The notes under the pieces: generated by a model | The model's input: the letters and a program-made list of their open reading frames with translations, nothing else | Database searches by the model: none | Told to the model about the DNA's origin: nothing | In this document: positions 27,257 through 63,231 of the stretch, piece by piece | Position numbering within the stretch: the first letter of the stretch is position 1 | How the letters are laid out: each line of letters starts with the position of its first letter | Made by a program: the position numbers and the translations under genes | Assembly: GCF_009664855.1 (NCBI RefSeq) | Contig: NZ_CP045928.1 | Span: forward strand, 434,001 to 498,000 | DNA: 64,000 nt | Direction of reading: 5' to 3' | Origin: Flavobacterium sp. SLB02 | GTDB lineage: Bacteria; Bacteroidota; Bacteroidia; Flavobacteriales; Flavobacteriaceae

Positions 27257-28294
27257 TCATGCGTTTACTTCAGTCCTGTCTTCAGCTTCATAACGAGAAA
27301 TGGCCCTCTCAAGGATCTTTTTCATACGATTTCGTAAGTTTTCTGGTTTGATAATTTCAATACCATCACCAAAACCTAACAGCATACGTTCCATTTCATA
27401 ATTAGGCGAAATAAACAAATGCACGATAATACTTTTGTCCTCATTTTCTTTAATAAGTCTTTGGGTATTGTGCAAAGGTTTTGTCAAAACATAAGGCGCG
27501 TTTACAGCATCGATCCAAAGTTCAATTTTTCGTGGCGGCAAACCTGTATTCACCGTAACGCCAATTATATTTTTATAGTAAAGTTCCGCATCAAAATCTT
27601 CTTCTAAATAGGGAAGGTTAAAATCATAATCTATGGCTATAATTCTGTCAAGCGCCAAATTGGTAATCGGCTGAGAACCTTTTTTCTTCCCCACCAAAAA
27701 CCATCTGTTATTAAATTCCTTCAGAATAAAAGGATGAAAATGAAATTTAGCTTCCTCTCTCGATTTAAACGATTTATAAGTAATTACCAAAACAATTTTT
27801 TTGATAATCGCCTGATATACTTCATCCAGATAATGCAAACCCTTCAATCCTTCGTTTTTGTCCAGGTAAATAACTGGTTTCGTATGCGATTTCTCCGCAT
27901 AGATTTTATCCTCCAGTCGCTGTAAAATATCCGATACATCATTAAACAAAGAAAAATCCTTAAACTGTTTGAGCATCGAAACTGTTTCCGTCAAAACATT
28001 CATATCCGTTTCCGTCAGCGGAATATCGGTTATCGAAAATTCATCATCCTCATATTTATAATACTTTTTATCATACACCACAATTGGCGCATTATAACCC
28101 AGTTTCTCACTTCGCATGAGCTGAATATCCATCTGAATCGTTCGTTTGCTAATTGGATTTTCGCGGCCTTCATATTCAAACAAAGCTTCAGAACAGCATT
28201 CTATTAAATCCTCCAGAGTCCATTGCCTGTATTTATTCTGCAGGCATTTGTCAATCGTTTTGTACCGTATTAAGGCGTTTTTGTTTTGTGACAT
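27257..28294 (-). CDS. WYL-domain transcriptional regulator
   Basis: 345 residues. An N-terminal winged helix (RYKTIDKCLQNKYRQWTLED; SKRTIQMDIQLMRSEKLGYN) is followed by a WYL domain (about 140-245) in which FHPFILKEFNNRWFLVGKKK is the core, and a WCX-type C-terminal extension. WYL proteins bind nucleic-acid or nucleotide ligands and control defence and repair systems. It stands at the edge of the RNA-repair island, so it is the natural candidate for the activator of the three boxed promoters. That link is untested. No box lies before its own gene. Confidence 0.87.
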   Translation of the reverse strand: MSQNKNALIRYKTIDKCLQNKYRQWTLEDLIECCSEALFEYEGRENPISKRTIQMDIQLMRSEKLGYNAPIVVYDKKYYKYEDDEFSITDIPLTETDMNVLTETVSMLKQFKDFSLFNDVSDILQRLEDKIYAEKSHTKPVIYLDKNEGLKGLHYLDEVYQAIIKKIVLVITYKSFKSREEAKFHFHPFILKEFNNRWFLVGKKKGSQPITNLALDRIIAIDYDFNLPYLEEDFDAELYYKNIIGVTVNTGLPPRKIELWIDAVNAPYVLTKPLHNTQRLIKENEDKSIIVHLFISPNYEMERMLLGFGDGIEIIKPENLRNRMKKILERAISRYEAEDRTEVNA

Positions 28295-28436: not shown

Positions 28437-29051
28437 TTAGCTTAATAACTTTATTTCCTGTTCAATATTAATTCGCGCTTTCTCTTCATATAAACCCCTA
28501 AATTCTTCCGTCTGAAAAATAAATTCATTCTCCAGAAAATGTTTCAAGGCTTTTGCACGTCCGGGTTTGTAGAGAAAATCAGGATAAATGCTATATTCTT
28601 TTCGAATCTGTTCAAAGTAAATCTGATATTCATTCCAATCTCGGGCGAGAATCTTCAAATCAAAATCTATTAACCAATTGATATCTTCGATTGTATTGTG
28701 CTGATGAAGTTGAGTCGCACAAATTGCATCAAAAACCAATTGTTTATCGAGTTCTATATTTTCAGGCAAAATCGAAAAAGCATATTCGGCACTTTTGAGT
28801 TCATTGTCTTTTTTGCTGCTCTTATAAATATAATCGTGATAAAAAATAGAAAATAATATTTCGTTTGGAGATTTGAGTCTGTCAAAATAAGTTTTATAAC
28901 ATTCAATCATATCCTTTATATGATTGAGATTATGATAATGTCTTGATTTTTGCGAATAGGCCTTTTCTACATCCAGCCATTTTTTCTGAATATCATTTGC
29001 TGAAAAGCCAATATTCGAAAGTAATTCAGAATAAAGTTGCTGTAAATTCAT
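28437..29051 (-). CDS. HD-superfamily predicted metal-dependent hydrolase
   Basis: 204 residues. The HD-type metal ligands are seen in SRHYHNLNHIKDMIECY and in FSIFYHDYIYKSS (the His-Asp pair), with the later AICATQLHQHN and a DFDLKILARDW stretch. This matches predicted metal-dependent HD phosphohydrolases of about 200 residues, whose substrate is unknown. It is divergent from the small-RNA array and shares the region with promoter box 1, so it may belong to the same regulon. Confidence 0.8.
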   Translation of the reverse strand: MNLQQLYSELLSNIGFSANDIQKKWLDVEKAYSQKSRHYHNLNHIKDMIECYKTYFDRLKSPNEILFSIFYHDYIYKSSKKDNELKSAEYAFSILPENIELDKQLVFDAICATQLHQHNTIEDINWLIDFDLKILARDWNEYQIYFEQIRKEYSIYPDFLYKPGRAKALKHFLENEFIFQTEEFRGLYEEKARINIEQEIKLLS

Positions 29052-29084: not shown

Positions 29085-29124
29085 TACTACGCAAAATAAT
29101 TGCGCATTGCAATCGAAATCTTTG
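29085..29124 (+). promoter_or_regulatory. Island promoter 1: 22-base box plus degenerate -7 element
   Basis: The box at 29085-29106 reads TACTACGCA then AAATAATTGCGCA. Ten bases later comes AATCTTTG (29117-29124), a -7 box lacking the first T. The same arrangement occurs at 31991-32029 and 44499-44538. Transcription from about 29130 would run through the five-RNA array into the RING gene. The box also lies 34 bases before the divergent HD gene. Confidence 0.6.
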
Positions 29125-29173
29125 TTTAGAAATAAAAACAAACGTTCATAGAAATAAAAAATAGAATAAAGCA

Positions 29174-29250
29174 GGTCAAGTTTGAGTTACTTCGAAAACT
29201 TTCCACGTACACACTTACACCATTACCTTTTTATTCAAATTAAAAATGAA
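29174..29250 (+). ncRNA. Array RNA 1 (Y-like helix)
   Basis: GGTCAA (29174-29179), helix strand GTTTGAGT, TACTTC; partner strand ATTCAAAT at 29233-29240 (two G-U pairs). The loop of about 40 bases has no tRNA-like part. This is the weakest member: its partner is followed by TAAAAATG rather than AATTATC. Confidence 0.45.
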
Positions 29251-29364
29251 GCAGTAGCTCAGCGGTTAGAGTAGGTAGTTTTGAAATTATCCATAAAGGT
29301 CAATCAAAACTTACTTCGTACATTTCTAATGTCCGGGTCGTGGGTTCGAATCCCATCTGCTTCA
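29248..29364 (+). ncRNA. Array RNA 2: tRNA-like RNA with the anticodon arm replaced by the array helix
   Basis: The acceptor stem GAAGCAG (29248-29254) pairs with CTGCTTC (29357-29363), with discriminator A. The D arm is GCTC/GAGT with loop AGCGGTTA. The T arm is GTGGG-TTCGAAT-CCCAT (29340-29356). In place of the anticodon arm are AGTTTTGA (29277-29284), AATTATCC, loop ATAAA, GGTCAA (29298-29303), TCAAAACT, TACTTC, then a small hairpin ACATT-TCT-AATGT. No 7-base anticodon loop can be formed. The array helix is thus closed by a loop while the acceptor ends are free, the reverse of YrlA topology. Confidence 0.75.
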
Positions 29365-29366
29365 CT

Positions 29367-29446
29367 ATTAATGGTCAATTAAAACTTACTTCAGAAAATT
29401 GGTAAACTCCGGTTCGAGTCCGGCGAGTTTTAAAATCACCATTAAT
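29367..29446 (+). ncRNA. Array RNA 3: Y-like RNA carrying a T-arm hairpin
   Basis: The outer helix ATTAATGGT (29367-29375) pairs with ACCATTAAT (29438-29446). After the GGTCAA/AATC internal loop, TTAAAACT (29379-29386) pairs with AGTTTTAA (29426-29433). The apical part has AAACTC-CGG-TTCGAGT-CCG-GC-GAGTTT, a T-arm-like hairpin with the tRNA T-loop sequence TTCGAGT. The closed 80-nt unit ends before a run of A. Confidence 0.7.
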
Positions 29447-29453
29447 AAAAAAA

Positions 29454-29528
29454 ACGAGGGTCAAGATTAACTTACTTCTGGGGAAACCCACCAAACTGTC
29501 ACTTTGAATCAGTTAATCAATTATCGTC
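29454..29528 (+). ncRNA. Array RNA 4 (Y-like helix with GNRA hairpin)
   Basis: GGTCAA (29459-29464), helix strand GATTAACT, TACTTC; perfect partner AGTTAATC (29511-29518) followed by AATTATCG. The apical part holds TGGG-GAAA-CCCA, a GNRA-capped hairpin. Confidence 0.65.
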
Positions 29529-29598
29529 AAATTTCAGGTCAAGTGTTTCTTACTTCAAAATCTTTTAGGTAGAACCAGAAACGCAATTATCTAAATTT
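29529..29598 (+). ncRNA. Array RNA 5, directly before the RING gene
   Basis: GGTCAA (29537-29542), helix strand GTGTTTCT, TACTTC; partner AGAAACGC (29577-29584, one G-U) followed by AATTATC. The outer AAATTT/AAATTT pair at 29529-29534 and 29593-29598 closes the unit 14 bases before the RING gene ATG. It may also act as a 5' leader structure of that mRNA. Confidence 0.6.
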
Positions 29599-29612
29599 TA
29601 AAAATTAAAAAA

Positions 29613-31853
29613 ATGAAAACACAAGAATTATTAAAAATCAGTTTGCGTCAAAACGCTATTTTCATTCCATCAGAAATGATTGCGAATGATATCAAAAAAT
29701 TATCAGGATCAACATCGGTTTTAGTAGCCAATGTTTCAAAGCTCGGATTTACGTTTTCCGAATCGTTATTACACGCTTTAAATAATGTAAATCCGAATTA
29801 TAAATTAGAGGTTTTAGAAATCTTAAAAGATGTTTTAGGAACAGATAAAAACTGGGCGCCTTTGGTAAAAGAATGGCATATTCCGACAGGAGAAACTGTT
29901 TTGGATCATGTTGCCACTTTTTTTGCAAATGTTTTTCAAACTAAAAACGGAACAACTTTACAATGCGGACATATTATTCCAGATAACACATTTGCTTTAG
30001 AACGATACAATGGTTGTCCGTTTTGCGGAACTCCGTTTGAATTTGGTAAAATCGAAAACTTTGGACAAGGAAGCAAATTAAAAGCATTGGATTTATGGTC
30101 AGATAAAAAATTGGAAGATTTCTATATATCATTATTGCAATCTAAAACCGCACTAGACGCTACACAGGCAGATAGTTTAAAAATAGCATTAAAGAATTTG
30201 CCTTTACCAAAAGCAGATATCGCGATCAAAGAAACTTTGATGTTGGTGATCGATGTTTTAATCGAAGAAGGTCAGGCCGAAAAAGCCTCTCAGTATTTTA
30301 AATCACCAACAGATATCTTACGATATTTATGGTTCAAGAATACAGGATTGTTGCAAATTATCGAGCCAAAAACGATTATCAAAAGAACATCAAAAAATGC
30401 TCAGCACTTTTTTAATGTTTTGGATACAAGTGCGCAGGCAAAAATTGCCTCTCAAAAAGATTTGAAATTGAAATATTCCCGAAAAGAATGTTTGATGGTA
30501 GCCAATTGGTTGAATAATCTGGATATGGATGTGGAGACAATGTGCGAAATCATGCACCCAAAAAGAGGGATGTGGGTTCGTTTTATAAGAGCGTTACGTT
30601 TGGCAGAATACAGCAAAAGAAAAGGCTTTGAAAAATTAGCTTTTTTGATGGATGTATTTTACAACCAGGTGTACGACGTTTGGCAAAGTAAAGTAAACAC
30701 ATCACGATTGAAATTTAATGCCGATAAAACATTTGCATTATTAAAACAACGTCCGGGATTGTTTGCACGTTCGTTATTCTCGAATATGCTGTGGTTTGGT
30801 GCAGACGAAACTGTGTTGCATTTTACAGAGATTATCGATAAAGTTCCTGCCAGATTGGTGTTTACTTTGAATATGTATGCTCAAAATTATTTTGATAAAA
30901 ACATGCAAAGAAGCGTGAAGCCTTTGGGTGGAACCAACAAACGAATTGCACCAAATGCATTATTGAATTTGTACGACGAAGCGCAATTAGAGGCGATGAA
31001 AAATCAAATCGAAGCGTTGTGTTTGTTGGTGATGAAGAAAAGATTTGCCGCAATTGCAAACCCAAACAAAACGATCTATATCGATCCGCAATTGTTTAAT
31101 ATGCCAGTTTCGATTGGAGATAGAAGCGAAAACGTTCAGGATTTACCGGTAGCTTTAATGGGAACACGTTTCCCAGTTGAAGGTAACGAAGTGAGATTGT
31201 TCATGCAATGGGGGACAGGTTTACCGGCACAACATCTTGATATGGATTTAAGCTGTCATATTGCGTATGAAGATAAAGCCGATATATGTTCTTTCAGCCG
31301 ATTGGAAACTGTTGGTTGTCAACATAGCGGTGATATCAGAAGTATTCCTGCGAAAGTGGGAACAGCTGAATACATCAAGATCGATATCGCTAAATTGGCG
31401 AAAGCCAACGCAAAATTTGTGACTTTTACCTGCAACGCTTACAGCAACGGAAGTATCACACCAAATCTTGTCGTAGGTTGGATGAACAGCAAACATCCAA
31501 TGAAAATCTCCGAGAAAACCGGAGTAGCATACGATCCGTCGTGTGTTGATCACCAAGTTCGTGTGACGCAAAATGTTGCAAAAGGTTTGGTTTTTGGAGT
31601 GTTAGATGTAGCCAAAAGAGATATCGTTTGGTTAGAGATGACCTTTGGAGGACAAGTTGTTCAAGGTTTGGATTTTAAAGGAGTCCAGGCGTTATTGGCA
31701 AAACTAAGCAGCAAATTGAATATTGGTAGTTTGTTACAACTCAAAGCGGAAGCCCAGGGTTTAAACATTACCGAATATCAAAATGCCGATGAGGTTTACG
31801 ATGCACAATGGGCGATAAATGCTGCGGCAGTTACGCAATTATTAATTGATTAA
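29613..31853 (+). CDS. Large RING/zinc-motif protein (MXAN_6230/SCO0854-like) of the RNA-repair island
   Basis: 746 residues. A partial RING or zinc-ribbon motif lies at 118-138: C118-x-H120 in TTLQCGHIIPD and C135-x2-C138 in NGCPFCGTPF. The middle (200-480) is helical. The C-terminal part (about 520-700) is beta-rich with VGCQHSGDIRS (HSGD at 571-574), reminiscent of TerD-like domains. I match it from memory to the MXAN_6230/SCO0854 family of RING-domain proteins. Biochemical function is unknown. It is not a TROVE/Ro60 protein. It directly follows five structured RNAs and precedes rtcB, so an RNA-binding or quality-control role is inferred. Confidence 0.75.
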   Translation: MKTQELLKISLRQNAIFIPSEMIANDIKKLSGSTSVLVANVSKLGFTFSESLLHALNNVNPNYKLEVLEILKDVLGTDKNWAPLVKEWHIPTGETVLDHVATFFANVFQTKNGTTLQCGHIIPDNTFALERYNGCPFCGTPFEFGKIENFGQGSKLKALDLWSDKKLEDFYISLLQSKTALDATQADSLKIALKNLPLPKADIAIKETLMLVIDVLIEEGQAEKASQYFKSPTDILRYLWFKNTGLLQIIEPKTIIKRTSKNAQHFFNVLDTSAQAKIASQKDLKLKYSRKECLMVANWLNNLDMDVETMCEIMHPKRGMWVRFIRALRLAEYSKRKGFEKLAFLMDVFYNQVYDVWQSKVNTSRLKFNADKTFALLKQRPGLFARSLFSNMLWFGADETVLHFTEIIDKVPARLVFTLNMYAQNYFDKNMQRSVKPLGGTNKRIAPNALLNLYDEAQLEAMKNQIEALCLLVMKKRFAAIANPNKTIYIDPQLFNMPVSIGDRSENVQDLPVALMGTRFPVEGNEVRLFMQWGTGLPAQHLDMDLSCHIAYEDKADICSFSRLETVGCQHSGDIRSIPAKVGTAEYIKIDIAKLAKANAKFVTFTCNAYSNGSITPNLVVGWMNSKHPMKISEKTGVAYDPSCVDHQVRVTQNVAKGLVFGVLDVAKRDIVWLEMTFGGQVVQGLDFKGVQALLAKLSSKLNIGSLLQLKAEAQGLNITEYQNADEVYDAQWAINAAAVTQLLID

Positions 31854-31990: not shown

Positions 31991-32029
31991 TACTACGCAA
32001 AATAACTGCGCACTTCTATAAAACCTTTG
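31991..32029 (+). promoter_or_regulatory. Island promoter 2: box plus degenerate -7 element before rtcB
   Basis: The box at 31991-32012 reads TACTACGCA then AAATAACTGCGCA. Nine bases later is AACCTTTG (32022-32029). The predicted start is near 32035, about 40 bases before the rtcB ATG. Confidence 0.6.
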
Positions 32030-32074: not shown

Positions 32075-33496
32075 ATGAATACACAAATAAACGGTACAGA
32101 TATACTAGAATTAGGATTCCCTGAAGGAAAAATAATCGGGATTGCCTTAAAAATAAATAGTAAAAGACACGGGTTGAAGCGTGATGAAATGATCACCAAT
32201 TTCAAGAACGTTCTTGAAACACCTGAAAATTATATAGACGATGCTATTTTTAGCAAACTGGCAATTGCTTTGATCGAAAAAGCAAATGAAAAACCAGAAG
32301 ATTTTATCGCATTAAACCAAAACCCGAATGCATATTCTGCTTACGGATTAGATCATATCGAAGACGGAGCGAGAAAACAAATGGAAGTAGCCATGAAATT
32401 GCCCGTTACCGTTGCCGGAGCTTTAATGCCGGATGCGCACCAAGGTTACGGATTGCCAATTGGCGGGGTTTTAGCGACTAAAAATGCTATTATTCCGTAT
32501 GGAGTTGGGGTTGATATTGGTTGTCGAATGGCGTTATCGGTTTATGATATTGCAGAAGATTTTTACTTTGAAAACGAAGCCAAATTCAAAAAAGAATTAA
32601 TTGCCAATTCGATTTTTGGAGCAGGTCACGGTTTTCATGGACAATACAAATCAGATCACGCGGTTTTAGAAAACGATGCTTTTAATATGACTCCGTTTGT
32701 GAAGCATTTAAAAGATAAAGCCTGGTCACAATTGGGGTCTTCGGGAGGTGGAAATCACTTTGTCGAATTCGGAATCATGGAATTTGCAAAAGACGATACG
32801 GTTTTAAATATCCCAAAAGGAAAATACGTGGCTTTGTTAACGCATTCTGGTTCACGTGGGATGGGTGCCACAATTGCCGGACATTATACTAAAATGGCAA
32901 AAGATGTTTGTAAACTTCCGGAAGTGGCTAAAAATTTAGCCTATTTGGATATGAACTCCCAATTGGGTCAGGAATACTGGATGGCGATGAATTTGGCGGG
33001 AGATTACGCTTCGGCTTGTCATGAGATTATCCATAACAAAATGGAACGCGCTTTGGGAGCAACGATTTTAGCCAAAGTCGAAAACCATCATAATTTTGCC
33101 TGGAAAGAAATCTGGAACGGAGAAGAAGTGATCGTGCATAGAAAAGGAGCAACTCCAGCCGGAAAAGGCGTTATGGGAATTATTCCGGGAAGTATGACCG
33201 CGCCGGGATTTTTGGTGAGAGGAAAAGGCGAGGAGAACGCCATAAACTCAGCTTCGCATGGAGCAGGAAGACAAATGAGCCGAACTCAAGCCATAAAAAA
33301 CATTACTAAAACCGAAATGAAATCGATTTTGCAATATCACGGGGTTACGCTTATTGGAGCAGGTCTTGACGAAGCCCCAATGGTCTATAAAGATATCAAT
33401 CAGGTGATGGAAGCGCAACAGGATTTAGTTGATGTCGTGGCGAAGTTTACCCCTAAATTGGTGAGAATGGCAGATGACGGAAGTCGAGAGGATTAA
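32075..33496 (+). CDS. rtcB: RtcB-family RNA ligase
   Basis: 473 residues. Mn2+/GMP-site residues are clear: Cys150 in GVDIGCRMA, His228 in SSGGGNHFVEFG, His257 in LTHSGSRGMG, a further His in ENHHNFAW, and the guanylylated His395 in ASHGAGRQMSR. RtcB joins RNA 2',3'-cyclic phosphate (or 3'-phosphate) to 5'-OH ends using GTP, the ends left by tRNA-cleaving toxins. It is longer than E. coli RtcB by about 65 residues, mainly N-terminal. No rtcA or RtcR gene is present, so control differs from the enterobacterial sigma-54 operon. Its own boxed promoter lies upstream. Confidence 0.94.
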   Translation: MNTQINGTDILELGFPEGKIIGIALKINSKRHGLKRDEMITNFKNVLETPENYIDDAIFSKLAIALIEKANEKPEDFIALNQNPNAYSAYGLDHIEDGARKQMEVAMKLPVTVAGALMPDAHQGYGLPIGGVLATKNAIIPYGVGVDIGCRMALSVYDIAEDFYFENEAKFKKELIANSIFGAGHGFHGQYKSDHAVLENDAFNMTPFVKHLKDKAWSQLGSSGGGNHFVEFGIMEFAKDDTVLNIPKGKYVALLTHSGSRGMGATIAGHYTKMAKDVCKLPEVAKNLAYLDMNSQLGQEYWMAMNLAGDYASACHEIIHNKMERALGATILAKVENHHNFAWKEIWNGEEVIVHRKGATPAGKGVMGIIPGSMTAPGFLVRGKGEENAINSASHGAGRQMSRTQAIKNITKTEMKSILQYHGVTLIGAGLDEAPMVYKDINQVMEAQQDLVDVVAKFTPKLVRMADDGSRED

Positions 33497-36930: not shown

Positions 36931-38259
36931 CTAAGAAATGACCATCTTCACTCCCAAAATATGCTTGCAAATTCCTCTTTTGCCCTGATAAGCCGTAAAC
37001 CAGTCGCAGGTACATCTTTGCGAATTATTGTCGATAATTACTTTGTGTAAAACGCCCGAACCTTTTACTTTGGCTTCGATATAATCAGCTCTTCGTTCGA
37101 CGATTTGGATGTCTTCGTTGTCGATTAGTTTTTTGGCATTTTTAAGTCTTGGGTTGAGCGATAAAATACGTTCGGTTTTAAAAGGGAGACGACGGTAGAA
37201 ATGCGCTTTTTCGCTTAAATCATAACCCAATAATCCCATCGAGGATAAATTCGAAGTCAGATTGTCCATCGTGCCAAAATCGATATCATTTTCGATAGAA
37301 AACATCGTGGGGTCAAAAGTTTCATTCGATTTAAGTAAACTGTTTAATCCGTAAACCCATTCTATAGGTAAGTTTTCGGTCATGGTTTCGAGTACATTTC
37401 CTTCGCCCGAAAATCCGCGGTATGAATCTGGAGAAAAAGCCATTAGAAGCTGCATTTTTCCAAATTCGGCCACAATCGCACAAGTTTGTTTGTCTGACGA
37501 TTCGTAGATGAAAATTTTATCTACAATAGCCAGAATTCCTTCTAACAAACGCAAACGCTGCACGCCGCCAATTCTAACGCTATCGGCTGTAGCCAAAGTC
37601 GAAAACATAAATTTTCCGGCTCTTTTGGTGATGAAAAAATCACCTTTTACAGTTCCTTTTGGTAAACTCTGAAACAGCTGAATCGTCTGAATTTTATTCA
37701 ATTCAAACTTAATATCCATATCGGCCAGATACAACTGCACGCTTGTTAAACCTTTTATCCAGCGCATGGGTAAAGTCACTTTTTTCTCTGTCACTTTTGC
37801 TTTGCTGGTAATGACCTGAACATCCTGCTGACCAACGGCAAGGGTTACTTTTTCGTTTTTCTGAATCGCATTTAAGGCATTCAGCATTGGGTCATTAAAA
37901 TCGACATTCGTAGTTCCGTTCGCGATAAATTCTCCGTCGATGGCTTCGGGTTTCATGTCCAGTCGCACATAAACGCCATTGCAGGACGAAAAACCTTCGA
38001 AACGCAAGCGCTCAGATCCTGCCGAAACGATAGGATCACGAAGACTTGGCGGAATGGGACCAAAACTGGAACGAACCACTTTGGCAATCGTAGTCCAGCA
38101 TTTTGCGGTAACATAAGGATCTGTCAAACTTCCCCAGAAAAAACACGGAATGTTATTGACTTCTTCAATTTCGGTTTGGTGTGCCAAAACCAGATTGTTA
38201 ATGCCTTTGGTTTTACTGTAAGTCGAAATTCCTTTATAATTATATTCGAGATCTGTCAT
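36931..38259 (-). CDS. SWIM zinc-finger protein
   Basis: 442 residues. The C-terminal SWIM finger is CTCDWFTAYQGKRGICKH (C-x-C-x12-C-x-H). The rest is alpha/beta without a known catalytic motif. SWIM domains bind nucleic acid or protein. It starts 6 bases after the WGR gene stop on the same strand, so the two form an operon and probably a complex. Pairs of SWIM and WGR/HEAT proteins recur in bacterial genomes near vWA and MoxR genes, but the function is unknown. Confidence 0.85.
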   Translation of the reverse strand: MTDLEYNYKGISTYSKTKGINNLVLAHQTEIEEVNNIPCFFWGSLTDPYVTAKCWTTIAKVVRSSFGPIPPSLRDPIVSAGSERLRFEGFSSCNGVYVRLDMKPEAIDGEFIANGTTNVDFNDPMLNALNAIQKNEKVTLAVGQQDVQVITSKAKVTEKKVTLPMRWIKGLTSVQLYLADMDIKFELNKIQTIQLFQSLPKGTVKGDFFITKRAGKFMFSTLATADSVRIGGVQRLRLLEGILAIVDKIFIYESSDKQTCAIVAEFGKMQLLMAFSPDSYRGFSGEGNVLETMTENLPIEWVYGLNSLLKSNETFDPTMFSIENDIDFGTMDNLTSNLSSMGLLGYDLSEKAHFYRRLPFKTERILSLNPRLKNAKKLIDNEDIQIVERRADYIEAKVKGSGVLHKVIIDNNSQRCTCDWFTAYQGKRGICKHILGVKMVIS

Positions 38260-38265
38260 TTTTCT

Positions 38266-41200
38266 TTATTTTAAAATTTGCTTAATCAATGATTTAAGCG
38301 ATGCATTATCTTTCCATTTTTCAAAGAAAACAATTGCTTTGGCCGATGGTTTTTGATTGGTTTTGGTTAAGATATCCAGATAGTTTTCTATTATTTTCTT
38401 GAAGTTGGTTGGTAATTTGTCTTTTAGATCAAGAGTTGAAAAAAACGAGTTCAACAACTTCAATAACGCATTATTGTGCAATGGTGAAACATCTTTTATG
38501 GCAATTAATCCGTCGACTAATCTTAAAAACACGCCATATTTTTCGGTTACCAGATACGCTATTTTCTCAGCAAAAAGTTCGATATCAATAGCTTGTTTTT
38601 CGATTAACTGAATCAAAACTTCAGATGCCAGTAATCGTAAATCTTTCTTTTCCTGGAAGAAACAGCAGGCATACAAAAACAGGCTGATATCTGAGAATCG
38701 AAATTCAGGTCGGTTGATGACATCCAGAAAACCTTTTAATTCTGGTTTTGCTCCATCGGCAGTTCCGCAATTTTGCAGTAAAGTCAATGCCAGCGCATCT
38801 GAGTTCTGCGGCGTAAGACTGTGCCAGAAATAGGTGTTTCCTGCATAGTTGAGTAAATAATCCCAACTGTTTGGTCGCTGATATACATCAAGACTGTACA
38901 GCAAATAGTTTGGGATTTTAGAATAATTAGGCAAGTCGAATCTTAGTTCGTACCAGGATGGCGTTCGTTCCTTTTCTTTGGTTTGGTAATTCGTCCATTC
39001 GTTCCATTTTTCCTTAAACTGAAGTTGAGGTTTAAAAGGAGACACCACAAACGGAATCTCTTTTAAATACGTATTCTCAAATTCAGGAAAAGTATCGTTT
39101 GGATAAAAAGTTCTTGCTGCAACTGCCCAAAGCGACAGGTTTCCGGTTTCTTTGGTCGTTTTGCCCATTGTCGCCAATAGTTTCGAAAACAACGAAGTCG
39201 AATCTAATGCTACTTTTTCGTTTACGCCCAGACAAAACGATAATAAGGGTTTGAGTTCACCTTCGATCTTATCTAATAACGGAATTGCCTCTTCAACATT
39301 TTCTCTCGGCATACGGGCAATTGCAATAGCCAGATCGACAGCATCAATTTCTTCTTTTGTATTTTGATATGCAATAACCCTTTCTAACAAAACTTTTGGA
39401 GCGACCCAATACGGTTTATGGCTCGGGAAAGAGAGCAGGGGCAAAGTAGAATTAGAATCTATTTTTTGCTGCACTTTTTCGAGTAAAGGCTGCATCAACA
39501 AAGTGGTATTAATCTTTGAATAATGATTGACTTTACTATTGAATTTGTTATCGATGTTGGCGATTTTAGATTGTAAAAATGCCTTCACGAAATTTTTGTG
39601 AGTGGCTTCAAAATAATGCTTTTGCAATTGTTTTTCATAAGGCTGCAATTGCGCGCTATAATCTGCCGGAAACAAATCCCGTTGCGCAATATAAATATTC
39701 AATAGAATTTCTGAATCGACTGTTTCTTCTGAATTAATGAAATTTCCAAACTGAAAAACAACATCGTTCCAATCCTTTGGCAACTGAACTTCTTCTGTAA
39801 GCAATAATTCTTGTTGAGGTTCGAATGTATATTCTTCATGTGCAGTATCATCAACAACCAGAGCATCTTCGTCTAAGAACTGGGTTAATCCTGATTTGAT
39901 ATTTCCCTGCATCAAAGTCACGTAAGATGATAATTTCTCTTTAAGAACTTTATCTTTTACGTTGCCAATTTTGGTAATAATTTTGGTAGTGCGTTCCTGC
40001 AACGCCAGATCGGCAATAACATAAACATCGGCAATAATAGATGAAATTGTAGCACTTAGTTTCGGGTTCGATTTGGTGATTTTTTCCAGAATTGGCAAAA
40101 CATTTTTAATGGCCGCTTTACAATCGCTGCGCATCATTAAAGGTTCTAGCCATTCGAGAAATGATTTGGTTTTGAATTTAGGATGATCGTAAATTTTCTT
40201 GATTAGTTCAATTCCGTAACTCGTTATAGGCGGATACGGATTGTGTAGAAAAGAGAATATGTTTTCCTGTAGAACGATCAGTTCATCGGCAGTAACATTA
40301 AATTCTTCGATTCTTTTTCTAAAAAAAGATTTCAGGTTATTGTTCCATTCTTTGGTTTGAATCAGGATGGCATTTTCGATAAAAAACGCACGTTCCATCT
40401 TTTTCTCCTCTAATAATGATTTATAAATAACGGCCCAGGTCTGGAATTCATCATGTTTTTGTTTATCATTATCCCTAAAAAAACTACTGTGCAGAATCGT
40501 TTCATAATTAAACAATTCCGGAATATCCCTTTGATACGTTAGTTTGTCGCTTAAGGATGTATTAATGAATCTTCTGGTCTTCATTTTGGAGCGCCATTCA
40601 TTCGTTGCGGCCAATGTCAAAGCGTATAATTCGGGATTATAGGTTAATAAATCCTGTTCTTCGAGTTGGCGCAGGGTATGATAATTAAATCCAACCCAAT
40701 CTTGTCTTTTTACTTTATCTAAAATAAAAGTATCGAGCCAATTGGGTTTTGCCCACAATAAAACTTCCTTCACCTGAGGTTTTTCGTCTAATTCATTTAA
40801 TAGACTCAAAGCCTCGTCCCAGGAATTGATATCTGCTTTATCAAATAAGGCGATGGCGCTTAGGGTAATAATATCACTTTGTTTTTTATCGCCGCGTGTT
40901 CCCCAGCCATAATCGTGTTTGTCTTTTTTTACATAACCCGGATCTTTGGTAAGATCAGTATAGGTCATAAAATAACGTTTACTTTTCTTGATGAGTTTTT
41001 TTAGCGCTTCAATATTCCCTTTTGATTTTTCTTTTAGAAAAGGCAATAGTAAATCTATATTTTTAGATTTTATGATCGTCTCATATTCTTCAAGAACTTC
41101 ATCAGATTTTGCGCTTTTAGCGGTTTTAGGTTTCGAAGCCACGGCAACATCACCAGTTTCTGAATAACCTTTTTTTACTTTTTCGGCCAGTATTTTTTCT

Positions 41201-41358
41201 GCTGATTTCAGACATTCTTCGTCTGTAGAAAATGATTTGGTTTGAGAAGTTCCTGATGTTCCGTTTTTGCCGTAAGTCACAGTATATTCTAAACCTGTAA
41301 CTTCAATTTGCCAAAACTTATCAGAGTTTCCGTCTATGTATTTTAAATATTTTTTCAT
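38266..41358 (-). CDS. WGR-domain helical-repeat protein
   Basis: 1030 residues. The WGR domain spans residues 1-70 (DKFWQIEVTGLEYTVTYGKN). The rest is mostly alpha-helical with HEAT/ARM-like repeats, and the middle may match DUF6493-type proteins (uncertain). WGR domains bind nucleic-acid ends and are shared with PARPs and MolR-like proteins. First gene of a two-gene operon with the SWIM protein. The 180 bases upstream separate it from the duplicated block. It carries no island promoter box. Confidence 0.8.
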   Translation of the reverse strand: MKKYLKYIDGNSDKFWQIEVTGLEYTVTYGKNGTSGTSQTKSFSTDEECLKSAEKILAEKVKKGYSETGDVAVASKPKTAKSAKSDEVLEEYETIIKSKNIDLLLPFLKEKSKGNIEALKKLIKKSKRYFMTYTDLTKDPGYVKKDKHDYGWGTRGDKKQSDIITLSAIALFDKADINSWDEALSLLNELDEKPQVKEVLLWAKPNWLDTFILDKVKRQDWVGFNYHTLRQLEEQDLLTYNPELYALTLAATNEWRSKMKTRRFINTSLSDKLTYQRDIPELFNYETILHSSFFRDNDKQKHDEFQTWAVIYKSLLEEKKMERAFFIENAILIQTKEWNNNLKSFFRKRIEEFNVTADELIVLQENIFSFLHNPYPPITSYGIELIKKIYDHPKFKTKSFLEWLEPLMMRSDCKAAIKNVLPILEKITKSNPKLSATISSIIADVYVIADLALQERTTKIITKIGNVKDKVLKEKLSSYVTLMQGNIKSGLTQFLDEDALVVDDTAHEEYTFEPQQELLLTEEVQLPKDWNDVVFQFGNFINSEETVDSEILLNIYIAQRDLFPADYSAQLQPYEKQLQKHYFEATHKNFVKAFLQSKIANIDNKFNSKVNHYSKINTTLLMQPLLEKVQQKIDSNSTLPLLSFPSHKPYWVAPKVLLERVIAYQNTKEEIDAVDLAIAIARMPRENVEEAIPLLDKIEGELKPLLSFCLGVNEKVALDSTSLFSKLLATMGKTTKETGNLSLWAVAARTFYPNDTFPEFENTYLKEIPFVVSPFKPQLQFKEKWNEWTNYQTKEKERTPSWYELRFDLPNYSKIPNYLLYSLDVYQRPNSWDYLLNYAGNTYFWHSLTPQNSDALALTLLQNCGTADGAKPELKGFLDVINRPEFRFSDISLFLYACCFFQEKKDLRLLASEVLIQLIEKQAIDIELFAEKIAYLVTEKYGVFLRLVDGLIAIKDVSPLHNNALLKLLNSFFSTLDLKDKLPTNFKKIIENYLDILTKTNQKPSAKAIVFFEKWKDNASLKSLIKQILK

Positions 41359-44498: not shown

Positions 44499-44538
44499 TA
44501 CTGCGCAGAATAATTGCGCAGTACCATTTGAATATTTG
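44499..44538 (+). promoter_or_regulatory. Island promoter 3: box plus degenerate -7 element
   Basis: The box at 44499-44520 reads TACTGCGCA then GAATAATTGCGCA (its core ACTGCGCA..TGCGCAGT is a perfect palindrome). Ten bases later is AATATTTG (44531-44538). A start near 44543 would transcribe the permuted tRNA mimic and, with no terminator seen, the slipin and exonuclease genes. Confidence 0.6.
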
Positions 44539-44699
44539 CTCAGATAATAAAAACAAGTTCTTTTATAAATTGAAATACATCAAAGTGAAGGCTTTGATTA
44601 AAAATATCAAACAAGTCCTGTTGCGTGTTTCTGTATAGCACCATTGTAGGGAACTTTTCGCGAAAGCGTATTATGTTTTTCTATGCAACTTGATTTGGA

Positions 44700-44821
44700 G
44701 GTTTTGATGGTTTTCCAAAAAACGATCGCCAACTCTATGTGTTGTGGGTTCGAATCCCATTCGCAGCAATGCGATAGCTCAATCCGGTAGAGCAATAGAT
44801 TTTTTCGGGTCTCAAAAAACC
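44700..44821 (+). ncRNA. Circularly permuted tRNA mimic (YrlA-like topology)
   Basis: In order: outer strand GGTTTTGA, CC, AAAAAA (44717-44722), anticodon-stem strand TCTAT (44734-44738), variable GTGTT, T arm GTGGG-TTCGAAT-CCCAT (44744-44760), acceptor strand TCGCA, tetraloop GCAA (44766-44769), acceptor strand TGCGA, TA, D arm GCTC-AATCCGGTA-GAGC (44777-44793), anticodon-stem strand ATAGA (44795-44799), TTTTTT, C, GG and outer TCAAAAAACC. Every tRNA arm pairs, but 3' and 5' halves are swapped and joined by a GNRA loop at the acceptor end. YrlA-type bacterial Y RNAs have this layout. The outer helix may compete with a GGTCTC/GAGACC hairpin (44808-44836). Confidence 0.8.
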
Positions 44822-44836
44822 TGTTGAACAGAGACC

Positions 44837-45228
44837 ATCACTCTTTAAAAGATGACCATTGAAAAAAACTGATTTGTCTTTGTCAGTGAAACTAAGATTT
44901 TAACATCTGAAATTTCACACTCATGATAAAACCAGCGCGAAAAGTAATGTTTTTTGAAATACTCTTTTTCTTTTCGATTTGATTGTACAGATGATTTTAG
45001 GATCATCTATATAAGAAACAATCGCAAACAATTTGAGTAAACAGATCACAAACTGTTCGTCCATTTTTCTCTGAGGAGAAGGGCAATGAGGTTTTTTATA
45101 AATAAAGAGAAAAGAATATAGAATAAAGATAATAGAGTAAAGATAATAGAGTAAAGAATATATAAGAAAGATTTTCGTTGCTTTCAACTTGAAACAAAGA
45201 AAACCTGAAATTTTAAATAAAAAATAGA
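44837..45228. other. Leader region between the tRNA mimic and the slipin gene
   Basis: About 390 bases with no gene and no clear terminator. It holds a short tandem repeat (AAAGATAATAGAGT units, about 45123-45160). It could be the 5' leader of the slipin mRNA. Confidence 0.4.
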
Positions 45229-46326
45229 ATGATAAAGAGAATTAAAATCGAAGCGTACCAAGCGGGTTTGCTTTTCGAAAACAGAAAATTAGTTGCAGTG
45301 TTACAAGAAGGTTTGCACTGGACTTTTGGGAACAAGAGTGTGTTGATTTATGATATGAATGCAGCTTTTCAGGCTCCATTTGAGTTGAACATCTTATTGC
45401 AGAATAAAGATTTGGCTTCAATGCTGGAAGTGGTTGAGGTGGCCGATAATGAGATCGTATTGCAATTTGTAAACGGAAACTTTAAAGAGATTTTGATTCC
45501 TGGGAGATATGCTTTCTGGAAAGGAATTGTAAAAAATGAATTTACGAGAGCCGATTTATCTAAGATTGAAATCACAGAAAATATTAAAGTGAATCTATTG
45601 GAACATGCGAAAATGAGATACTTTACCAGAAAGTTTATCGTAGCAAGCAATGACAAAGCGTTGTTGTTTGTGAATGGAACTTTTGTAAAAGAATTGAAAT
45701 CAGGAACGCATTACTTTTGGAATAACGCGATTACAATCGAGGTTAAAACCGTTGATATCAGACAACAGCAAGTAGAAATTTCCGGTCAGGAATTATTGAC
45801 TAAGGACAAAGCAGGATTAAGAATCAACTTTTTTGTGAGATATCAGGTTGTAGATATTATGAAGGCTTTGCTAGACAATAAAGATTTTGAAAAACAATTG
45901 TATGTGGCAATGCAACTGGCTTTAAGAGCTTTTGTTGGCGGATTGACTTTAGATGAATTATTGGCCAGAAAAGATACAATTGCCGAAGCCATTTTAGGAG
46001 AAGTAACCACTAAAATAGAAGACTTAGGTTTAACGATTTTTGATGCCGGAATTCGTGACGTAATCTTGCCAGGAGATATGAAAGAGATCATGAATCAGGT
46101 TTTGGTTGCCGAGAAAAAAGCTCAGGCCAACAGTATCATGAGAAGAGAAGAAACTGCTGCAACAAGAAGTTTATTAAACACAGCAAAGCTGATGGAAGAA
46201 AACGAAATGTTGTGGAAATTGAAAGAGATGGAATACGTTGAAAAAATCGCTGATAAAATTGGAGAAATCACAATTTCAGGAGGTGGAAACGTCATTGGTC
46301 AATTAAAGGAAATCTTTGTGAAATAA
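45229..46326 (+). CDS. Slipin (SPFH/band-7) protein
   Basis: 365 residues. The SPFH domain spans about 100-280 (LLTKDKAGLRINFFVRYQVV and LALRAFVGGLTLDELLARKD), followed by a coiled-coil-like helix (LVAEKKAQANSIMRREETAA). There is no strong N-terminal membrane helix. The N-terminal 100 residues repeat a pattern (LLFENRKLVAVLQEGLHWTF against LLFVNGTFVKELKSGTHYFW), as in slipins of rtc loci. Slipins are known neighbours of RtcB/Ro genes, but their role in RNA repair is unclear. 22 bases before the exonuclease gene. Confidence 0.9.
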   Translation: MIKRIKIEAYQAGLLFENRKLVAVLQEGLHWTFGNKSVLIYDMNAAFQAPFELNILLQNKDLASMLEVVEVADNEIVLQFVNGNFKEILIPGRYAFWKGIVKNEFTRADLSKIEITENIKVNLLEHAKMRYFTRKFIVASNDKALLFVNGTFVKELKSGTHYFWNNAITIEVKTVDIRQQQVEISGQELLTKDKAGLRINFFVRYQVVDIMKALLDNKDFEKQLYVAMQLALRAFVGGLTLDELLARKDTIAEAILGEVTTKIEDLGLTIFDAGIRDVILPGDMKEIMNQVLVAEKKAQANSIMRREETAATRSLLNTAKLMEENEMLWKLKEMEYVEKIADKIGEITISGGGNVIGQLKEIFVK

Positions 46327-46348
46327 AAATAAATTAAAAATTAGAAAA

Positions 46349-46894
46349 ATGAAAACTACAGATAAAATTATTATTATCGATTTAGAAGCCACTTGTTGGC
46401 AGAGCGCAGTTCCTGAAGGTCAGGAGAATGAAATTATCGAAATTGGCTTAGCGGTTTTAGATTTGCAAACGAGTGAAATTACGCAGAATCAGGGTATCTT
46501 AATAAAACCCCAGCGTTCAAGCGTGAGTCCCTTTTGTACAGAACTAACAACTATTACCCAAGATTTACTCGATAAAAACGGAGTAACTTTTGAGCAAGCC
46601 ATCGAAAAGCTGGTAGACGAATATCAGCCTGATTTATATACCTGGGCGAGTTACGGTCAGTACGATATAAATATGATTCGAAAACAATGCAGCTCGTTTG
46701 GTATTGCTTATCCAATGGGGGATCAGCATATTAATGTGAAAACACTTATTGCAGAAAAATTAGATTTACAAAAACCAACCGGAATGAATGGTGCTTTGCA
46801 TCTTTTAAATATTCCGCTGGAAGGAACGCATCACCGCGGAATTGATGATGCAAAGAATATCGCAAAAATCCTGAATTGGTGTTTGCGCAATTAA
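46349..46894 (+). CDS. DEDDh 3'-5' exonuclease (ERI-1/KapD-like)
   Basis: 181 residues, one exonuclease domain. Catalytic residues: Asp11 and Glu13 in IIIIDLEATCW, Asp in WASYGQYDINMIRKQC, and His plus Asp in EGTHHRGIDDAKNIAKIL. The cysteine after the first motif (DLEATCW) is typical of the ERI-1/KapD branch that trims structured RNA 3' ends. Co-transcribed with slipin. It would fit 3'-end processing of the island RNAs or damaged tRNA (inference). Confidence 0.88.
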   Translation: MKTTDKIIIIDLEATCWQSAVPEGQENEIIEIGLAVLDLQTSEITQNQGILIKPQRSSVSPFCTELTTITQDLLDKNGVTFEQAIEKLVDEYQPDLYTWASYGQYDINMIRKQCSSFGIAYPMGDQHINVKTLIAEKLDLQKPTGMNGALHLLNIPLEGTHHRGIDDAKNIAKILNWCLRN

Positions 46895-62580: not shown

Positions 62581-62654
62581 GTGGTTGTAGCTCAGCTGGT
62601 TAGAGTATTGGTTTGTGGTGCCGAGGGTCGCCGGTTCGAACCCGGTCAGCCACC
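62581..62654 (+). tRNA. tRNA-His (GTG), copy 1
   Basis: Acceptor GTGGTTG/CAGCCAC, an extra G at -1 (62580) opposite C73 as required for tRNA-His, anticodon loop TTGTGGT, T arm GCCGG-TTCGAAC-CCGGT. No encoded CCA. The anticodon stem TTGGT/GCCGA differs from copy 2 at four positions with pairing kept. Confidence 0.93.
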
Positions 62655-62663
62655 CAGAATTGT

Positions 62664-63149: not shown

Positions 63150-63223
63150 GTGGTTGTAGCTCAGCTGGTTAGAGTAGCGGTTTGTGGTGCCGCGGGTCGC
63201 CGGTTCGAACCCGGTCAGCCACC
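63150..63223 (+). tRNA. tRNA-His (GTG), copy 2
   Basis: Same as copy 1 apart from the anticodon stem GCGGT/GCCGC. G-1 is present at 63149. No encoded CCA. Confidence 0.94.
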
Positions 63224-63231
63224 CAAAAATT

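Follow-up and report, generated by a model that had tools for sequence, protein, structure and literature searches.

A putative RNA-repair locus of Flavobacterium: five small structured RNAs, some with tRNA-like parts, beside genes for a RING/TerD protein and RtcB

Among the RNAs described in bacteria, YrlA (RF02553) offers the closest comparison for the locus treated here; it accompanies Ro60/Rsr (TROVE) in rsr-yrlBA-rtcBA operons (PMC8394870, PMC7790460), and its two ends make up a stem, joined to a part that resembles tRNA in having D, T, and acceptor arms (PMC8394870). An array of five units in Flavobacterium sp. SLB02, located within a 64,000-nucleotide stretch (contig NZ_CP045928.1, positions 434,001 to 498,000; hereafter the window, in whose coordinates positions are given), likewise combines a stem with a tRNA-like part in an RtcB context, but it has no TROVE gene, is unmatched by the Rfam YrlA model, and comes in up to seven copies in a row among its relatives; a RING/TerD protein stands in place of Ro60, and a WYL gene rather than RtcR adjoins it. 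Another arrangement, in which an SPFH/Band-7 protein occurs with a tRNA-like RNA beside RtcB, was reportedly described by Burroughs and Aravind in 2016; the operon at 44501-46894 of the window looks like that system, whereas the array of GGUCAA stems and the RING protein form the other arm of the same regulon. We propose, with a probability of roughly 0.68, that the five units are small structured RNA genes, likely bound by the RING protein and likely serving as Y-RNA-like, tRNA-shaped adaptors in RNA repair with RtcB.

An earlier note on this DNA had listed five copies of GGTCAA-N7-TTACTTC, and a pattern scan of the window returned exact matches at all five starts (29174, 29298, 29373, 29459, and 29537); with up to two mismatches allowed, just two extra matches appeared, both with two mismatches, as compared to a shuffled mean of 2.05. 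The copies follow the stem rule GGU-CAA-(8 nt)-UACUUC ... (8 nt complementary)-N-AUU-AYC: the AYC of the 3′ conserved sequence N-AUUAYC pairs with the GGU of GGUCAA, an internal loop of CAA and the N-AUU bases stays constant, and the 8 bp of the helix may vary provided that pairing is kept. The modules and the gene that follows them are given below.

29174-29227, forward strand: module copy 1 (open); 5′ strand 29174-29193, likelier partner ACTTACAC at 29213-29220, then CATTACC
29248-29364, forward strand: tRNA core (acceptor, D, and T arms; Rfam tRNA, 45.1 bits) with permuted module copy 2 in the anticodon arm
29277-29317, forward strand: parts of copy 2, namely partner AGTTTTGA at 29277-29284, AATTATC at 29285-29291, and 5′ strand at 29298-29317
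29373-29440, forward strand: module copy 3 (open); partner AGTTTTAA at 29426-29433, then AATCACC; matched at E 1.9e-7 as a sequence outside the model
29459-29525, forward strand: module copy 4 (open); partner AGTTAATC at 29511-29518, then AATTATC; matched at E 9.5e-8 as a sequence outside the model
29537-29591, forward strand: module copy 5 (open); partner AGAAACGC at 29577-29584, then AATTATC
29613-31853, forward strand: RING-family protein, 746 aa; RING finger at about residues 117-139, helical domain at about 154-484, TerD fold at about 521-690

The partner strands named in the earlier note pair at 8/8 positions in each of copies 2 to 5. For copy 1 it had chosen ATTCAAAT, which also pairs at 8/8 but lacks the 3′ motif of the other copies, whereas the alternative ACTTACAC followed by CATTACC (29213-29227) has this motif and 7/8 pairs. 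Among 67 copies of the copy-1 type, the motif partner reached at least 7/8 pairs in 57, as compared to 37 for a partner at the distance used in the note (14 offsets tried) and 20 for 14 control offsets; ATTCAAAT is therefore the less likely partner, and ACTTACAC/CATTACC appears likelier from the sequence. The partner of copy 2 lies upstream of its own 5′ strand and within the tRNA-like gene, which makes the GGU/AUC end the closed end and the copy a permuted one. Copy 3 encloses a T-arm-like hairpin, CCGG-TTCGAGT-CCGG; neither this hairpin nor the permutation of copy 2 within a tRNA anticodon arm had been part of the first account.

That the units are structured RNAs whose helices change in a compensatory way while the internal-loop bases stay constant, as first suggested from the five copies, is supported by the pairing kept across loci. 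RNAalifold, supplied with no structure, drew 11 pairs from a MAFFT alignment of 34 open modules that we chose from the genus loci, the RING loci of a contig scan, and the window, and 9 of these 11 were changed on both sides; 94.9% of the cells were paired, and covariation amounted to 0.707 as compared to 0.186 ± 0.022 in shuffled alignments (reached by 0/500 shuffles) and at most 0.142 when slid. An earlier swap control was set aside because its partners had been picked by pairing, and partners were instead set by the 3′ motif alone, whose strict form is absent from 78 of the 335 exact copies. Under this rule, open copies had at least 7/8 pairs in 149 of 165 cases, and over 71 distinct helix pairs a fraction of 0.893 of the positions paired, against 0.597 (maximum 0.658) after swapping: the helix pairing of open copies is not chance. 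For permuted copies the margin was thin, with at least 7/8 pairs in 64 of 92 and a fraction of 0.808 against 0.719 (maximum 0.795) for swapped partners. The outer helix covaries as well, GTTCAA occurring with AATTAAC (T-A replacing G-C or G-T) in 4 of 166 distinct modules and GGCCAA with AATTGCC (C-G replacing T-A) in 2, out of 4 with C at that place; it speaks against this covariation that the same two pairs are broken in 5 and 3 of the 166, respectively.

The array is closely tied to the RING gene. At least one match to the 20-nt pattern was found in 37 of 150 genomes of the genus, two or more matches within 1 kb in only 21, and a comparison of the sets revealed that these 21 are exactly the 21 genomes with a RING gene. 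RtcB is encoded in every RING genome and in 41 of the 129 others; by our reading of the distances, 15 of the 21 have it no more than 3 kb from the RING gene and one (G111) about 7 kb away, and it is not near in the remaining five (G004, G042, G060, G091, and G099). The contig scan yielded 75 RING loci, including Emticicia, Spirosomataceae, Cytophaga, Niastella, Chitinophaga, and Parabacteroides. Together with locus L033 and the window they make up 77 Bacteroidota loci, of which the upstream side was scanned, and a relaxed 5′-strand pattern detected modules upstream of the RING gene in all 77, with two or more in 76 and three or more in 73 (median 5, maximum 7, and a single copy in L128).

The acceptor, D, and T arms of copy 2 are intact, its anticodon arm holds a long insert, and the predicted fold is cloverleaf-shaped, the module forming an additional arm (minimum free energy -33.1, z score -3.24). 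Copy 2 is thus like a tRNA (RF00005) in its complete arms, but has a closed stem plus linker in place of the anticodon loop. ARAGORN made no tRNA call for it, and it has no anticodon arm with a readable anticodon: the module sits in this arm, and the loop, by eye, is unconserved between loci. Besides the window, 8 of 13 distant loci have a tRNA core that reaches the Rfam gathering score and carries a module in its anticodon arm (arms identified by eye), at 45 to 59 bits (L110 twice, L114, L117, L118, L119 twice, L121, L122, and L123), and the same design was found in Hymenobacter (51.7 bits) and Segatella (43.2 bits). Where anticodon stems are readable, their strands vary between loci yet match, for example, GUAGC/GCUAC (L114) and CCGGAU/AUCCGG (L123), and in L109, L111, L113, L117, and L127 a second, open module is seemingly nested in the loop of the permuted one (both by eye). 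Copy 2 and its relatives thus present a stem with an internal loop joined to a tRNA-like module, as Y RNA and YrlA do, in permuted order. According to our reading of its alignment, the Rfam YrlA model runs from a T arm through a closed acceptor stem to a D arm. The protein-binding stem of YrlA is open and its acceptor stem closed, whereas in copy 2 the acceptor is open and the would-be protein-binding stem closed; as read from its predicted arms, copy 2 is a circular permutation of the YrlA layout, opened at the acceptor stem and sealed at the putative protein-binding stem. In the array region 29100-29612, Rfam gave no YrlA match up to E 5, and the sole match over the gathering score was a tRNA.

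In 4 of 18 loci scanned, the array is preceded on its own strand by clusters of 6 to 14 tRNA genes, which may possibly supply replacement tRNAs of the same system. Two tRNA-His(gtg) genes about 500 bases apart were also noted in the window (62581-62655 and 63150-63224).

L113, 640-3646, strand of the array: tRNA cluster
L127, 1185-3308, strand of the array: tRNA cluster
L109, 2903-3632, strand of the array: tRNA cluster
L098, 2633-3116, strand of the array: tRNA cluster

Concerning the protein, residues 12-700 of the window RING protein align (E 4.2e-34) with the MXAN_6230/SCO0854 family RING domain protein (NF041916), and with 117.9 bits against a cut-off of 600 the window protein is a remote relative of this family, whose name mentions no RNA partner. 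Ro60 chains head the long matches to its helical domain, which seems faintly to resemble Ro60; a Foldseek search against the PDB returned no useful match for this domain. Homology to TROVE could not be established by sequence: PF05731 is absent both from the three families that the window protein matched up to E 1 and from the list of 25 families obtained for 37 RING members, and hhalign against TROVE gave a probability of 0.1. A C-terminal vWA domain is a feature of Ro60/TROVE proteins, and none was found in the window RING protein. The earlier remark that the window holds no Ro60/TROVE gene was confirmed and extends to the entire 6.36-Mb single-contig genome (0 matches to PF05731, which in a control search was matched in 1 of 14 genomes, that of Deinobacterium chartae); the 18 TROVE genomes, out of 247, include none of the 8 genomes, out of 296, with a full-length RING protein. 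The suggestion that the RING protein is the alternative partner of these RNAs appears likely in view of the 21/21 co-occurrence in the genus and of stems beside remote homologues, the partnership itself being a prediction. In the accessible part of the literature, no tie of RNA stems to this RING family was found, an earlier mention in Burroughs and Aravind 2016, Chen 2014, Sim and Wolin 2018, or Sim 2020 being possible.

Beyond Bacteroidota, tblastn identified the RING family in 9 distinct phages (11 records) and in plasmids (31 records). In Rhodococcus phage Weasels2, four stems lie just 3′ of the RING gene, and rtcB and five annotated tRNAs are found at distances of up to about 4 kb; a descriptor scan found four stems as compared to a shuffled mean of 0.03, and an alignment of three of them contains 6 of 12 pairs that are doubly changed. 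The fourth, by our reading, encloses a T arm, a closed acceptor stem, and a D arm (z score -2.92); Rfam listed neither tRNA nor YrlA there. Five stems precede the RING gene of Mycobacterium phage WXIN, and stems picked by hand precede it in Deinococcus, Streptomyces (one copy, z score -4.42), the phages XacN1, RpAliso, RcXuper, and LpeD, and a faecal phage; in Variovorax, hand-picked stems tentatively follow it, and rtcR lies 1.3 kb from the homologue. In all, 25 non-Bacteroidota stems were chosen by hand, and none were found at the RING loci of Niallia and SCTP-2.

A search of 214,533 bases with the Bacteroidota model R1 (E up to 1) yielded 12 matches, each of them on the coding strand and next to a RING gene but outside its coding part; of the 15 loci besides the window, 9 were without a match. 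The descriptor scan of 15 regions rose far above shuffled sequences in Weasels2 only; it yielded 3 stems in the window against 0.28 (maximum 2) and none in L199, L200, L202, and L212, whereas nine other regions gave 1 to 3 (shuffled: 0.05 to 0.38), of which some are plainly spurious. From the cross-phylum alignment A5, RNAalifold drew 0 pairs, probably through misalignment, and from the single-phage alignments A6 and A7 it drew the expected stem. Before two phage RING genes (L206, 1209-1552; L208, 1037-1459), ARAGORN made asterisk-marked tmRNA calls in non-coding sequence among module-like stems; the asterisk denotes a permuted tmRNA. With jumbo-phage RNA repair (ROT/TROVE, RtcB, and stand-alone TerD), these loci share the occurrence of RNA ligases, tRNAs, and TerD in phages, TerD being mentioned there for actinobacterial phages as well; the available part of that source draws no link from TerD to RtcB or to an RNA partner (PMC7824862).

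Absent from the first account was also the finding that one operator joins the array to rtcB and to the operon of a YrlA-like RNA.

29087-29106, forward strand: operator palindrome CTACGCA-N7-TGCGCA, then AATCTTTG; predicted array promoter
31993-32012, forward strand: second copy of the operator, upstream of rtcB
44501-44520, forward strand: third copy of the operator
32075-33496, forward strand: RtcB RNA ligase (Pfam PF01139, E 1e-81)
27257-28294, reverse strand: WYL-domain regulator (Pfam WYL/WCX)
44719-44814, forward strand: YrlA-like permuted tRNA (T arm, closed acceptor stem, D arm); RF02553, 46.1 bits, E 5e-9, below the gathering score of 69
45229-46326, forward strand: Band-7/SPFH protein (PF01145, E 1.5e-27)
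46349-46894, forward strand: RNase_T (DnaQ-like) 3′-5′ exonuclease (PF00929, E 8.8e-18)

The element AATCTTTG is presumably a Bacteroidota -7-like element. In the 6.36-Mb genome, CTRCGCA-N7-TGCGYA occurs exactly at 29087, 31993, and 44501 of the window and nowhere else, with three further places at one mismatch; these operators precede the array, rtcB, and the operon of the YrlA-like RNA, the Band-7 protein, and the RNase_T exonuclease, respectively, and rtcB thus stands under the operator of the array. The operator was found in 63 of the 150 genus genomes (reversed control: 8 matches in 7 genomes), namely in all 21 RING genomes and in 42 of the 129 others, and is hence not confined to the array; at least 9 of these 42 have a YrlA-like match no more than 500 bases from the operator (by eye, with a model that also matches tRNAs). 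A strict regular expression for the operator matched 56 of the 77 loci and missed 21. Genus-wide YrlA counts (134 of 150 genomes) were discarded as evidence, because none exceeded the gathering score and the model matches most genomes at about 30 to 36 bits, apparently neighbouring tRNAs too. The fold energy of 44719-44814 is unremarkable (z score -0.32; -0.81 for the wider stretch 44550-45000). In the genome G076 (L033, 396-5880), a YrlA-like RNA (42.1 bits) and a Band-7 gene directly precede a two-copy array and RING-RtcB, so that both operons are united.

Besides the window, 8 of 20 loci (L057, L068, L111, L112, L117, L118, L122, and L123) have a WYL gene close to the array, as does L198. 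Between the WYL gene of the window and the array, 28437-29051 encodes a 204-aa protein without a Pfam match, which stands beside WYL in L057 and L068, too; by our reading its sequence looks HD-like. The WYL regulator may well bind the operator, and WYL domains count as predicted ligand-binding regulators of defence systems (PMC4012209). RlaP nucleotidyltransferases were found in the relatives L112 and L068. Judged by sequence appearance, the genes downstream of RING in L113 (6259-10212) and L127 (6256-10209) encode a MoxR-type AAA ATPase and a vWA protein; annotated VWA-like and MoxR genes adjoin the RING gene of Deinococcus sp. QL22, and WGR, AAA, and VWA genes lie near that of Streptomyces. 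On the minus strand of the window, two adjacent genes (36931-41358) encode a SWIM zinc-finger protein and a protein with the domains WGR-DUF6493-DUF7824-DUF7825.

Several other explanations need to be weighed. The array might be a 5′ leader control element, such that the RING protein binds stems in its own mRNA and represses itself, with the tRNA likeness merely aiding processing; this would suit modules that lie upstream and on the same strand as the RING gene in the 77 loci, the last copy of the window ending just 21 nt 5′ of the start codon. We nevertheless regard it as rather unlikely, since phage Weasels2 and, tentatively, Variovorax have their stems on the 3′ side of the gene, a leader would need less than a 7-bp acceptor stem and full D and T arms, and the same operator precedes a second tRNA-like RNA in a separate operon. 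Improbable, too, is that the tRNA-like RNAs are a bait or sensor, that is, deliberate substrates or competitive inhibitors of tRNA-cutting nucleases that the RING protein only stores. A competitive-inhibitor role has been proposed for YrlA (PMC7790460), the Flavobacterium tRNA cores have, by our reading, a Lys- or Arg-like hairpin loop, and tRNA genes cluster near the array in the 4 loci given above and occur in some phages; however, the loop is by eye not kept outside Flavobacterium, most copies are without an anticodon-like part, and fragments of YrlA itself went undetected in the same study (PMC7790460).

Since RtcB belongs to the tRNA-splicing ligase family and removal of the insert from the Flavobacterium copy 2 leaves, by our reading, a canonical-looking anticodon arm, one could also imagine an intron-like module that is excised from copy 2 before RtcB rejoins a working tRNA. 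This is very doubtful, as the would-be anticodon varies (UUU, UCU, or none readable), the position of the insert and the length of the stem differ between loci (by eye), and the other four copies lie outside tRNAs. The Y-like layout and the RtcB context would finally fit an ordinary Ro60-Y RNA system with an unseen Ro60, which is hardly credible in a single-contig genome without a TROVE match, with TROVE and full-length RING genomes sharing no member in the sets above and Rfam listing neither Y RNA nor YrlA in the array; a canonical Ro60/Y RNA system was rejected because of the missing TROVE match in the genome and the missing YrlA match in the array.

Our preferred reading, that of RING-bound adaptor RNAs, would operate as follows, where the steps past co-conservation, like the binding by the RING protein and the function of the array RNAs, are what we infer. 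Upon cleavage of RNA, most likely of tRNA, the WYL regulator would release the regulon. The RING protein would then grip the stem via its helical domain, as Ro60 grips Y RNA, such that the array RNAs serve as handles for it, some of which bear tRNA shapes. These tRNA-like parts might offer tRNA, damaged or serving as bait, to RtcB and to enzymes that trim it or add nucleotides; on such a platform with RtcB, the 3′-5′ exonuclease, and, in some relatives, RlaP, a cut tRNA would be met, trimmed or extended, and handed to the ligase. On balance, and by a narrow preference, we further favour the broader view that these loci represent a third RNA-repair ribonucleoprotein beside Ro60-Y RNA and Band-7-tRNA-like RNA, spread across several bacterial phyla and phages, in which RING/TerD proteins with a Ro60-like helical ring use multi-copy tRNA-mimic RNA families of their own, built to one design in two circular permutations (stem open and acceptor closed, or stem closed in the anticodon arm and acceptor open).

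If this holds true, the MXAN_6230/SCO0854 (Prok-RING_4) family, so far named but unexplained, would gain an RNA partner and a role, tRNA-mimicking adaptor RNAs would not be tied to Ro60, and the role of Y-like RNAs in RtcB repair would become testable in soil bacteria. The natural circular permutation amounts to a clean structure-function experiment, and the phage-borne copies would suggest a use in conflicts over cut tRNAs.
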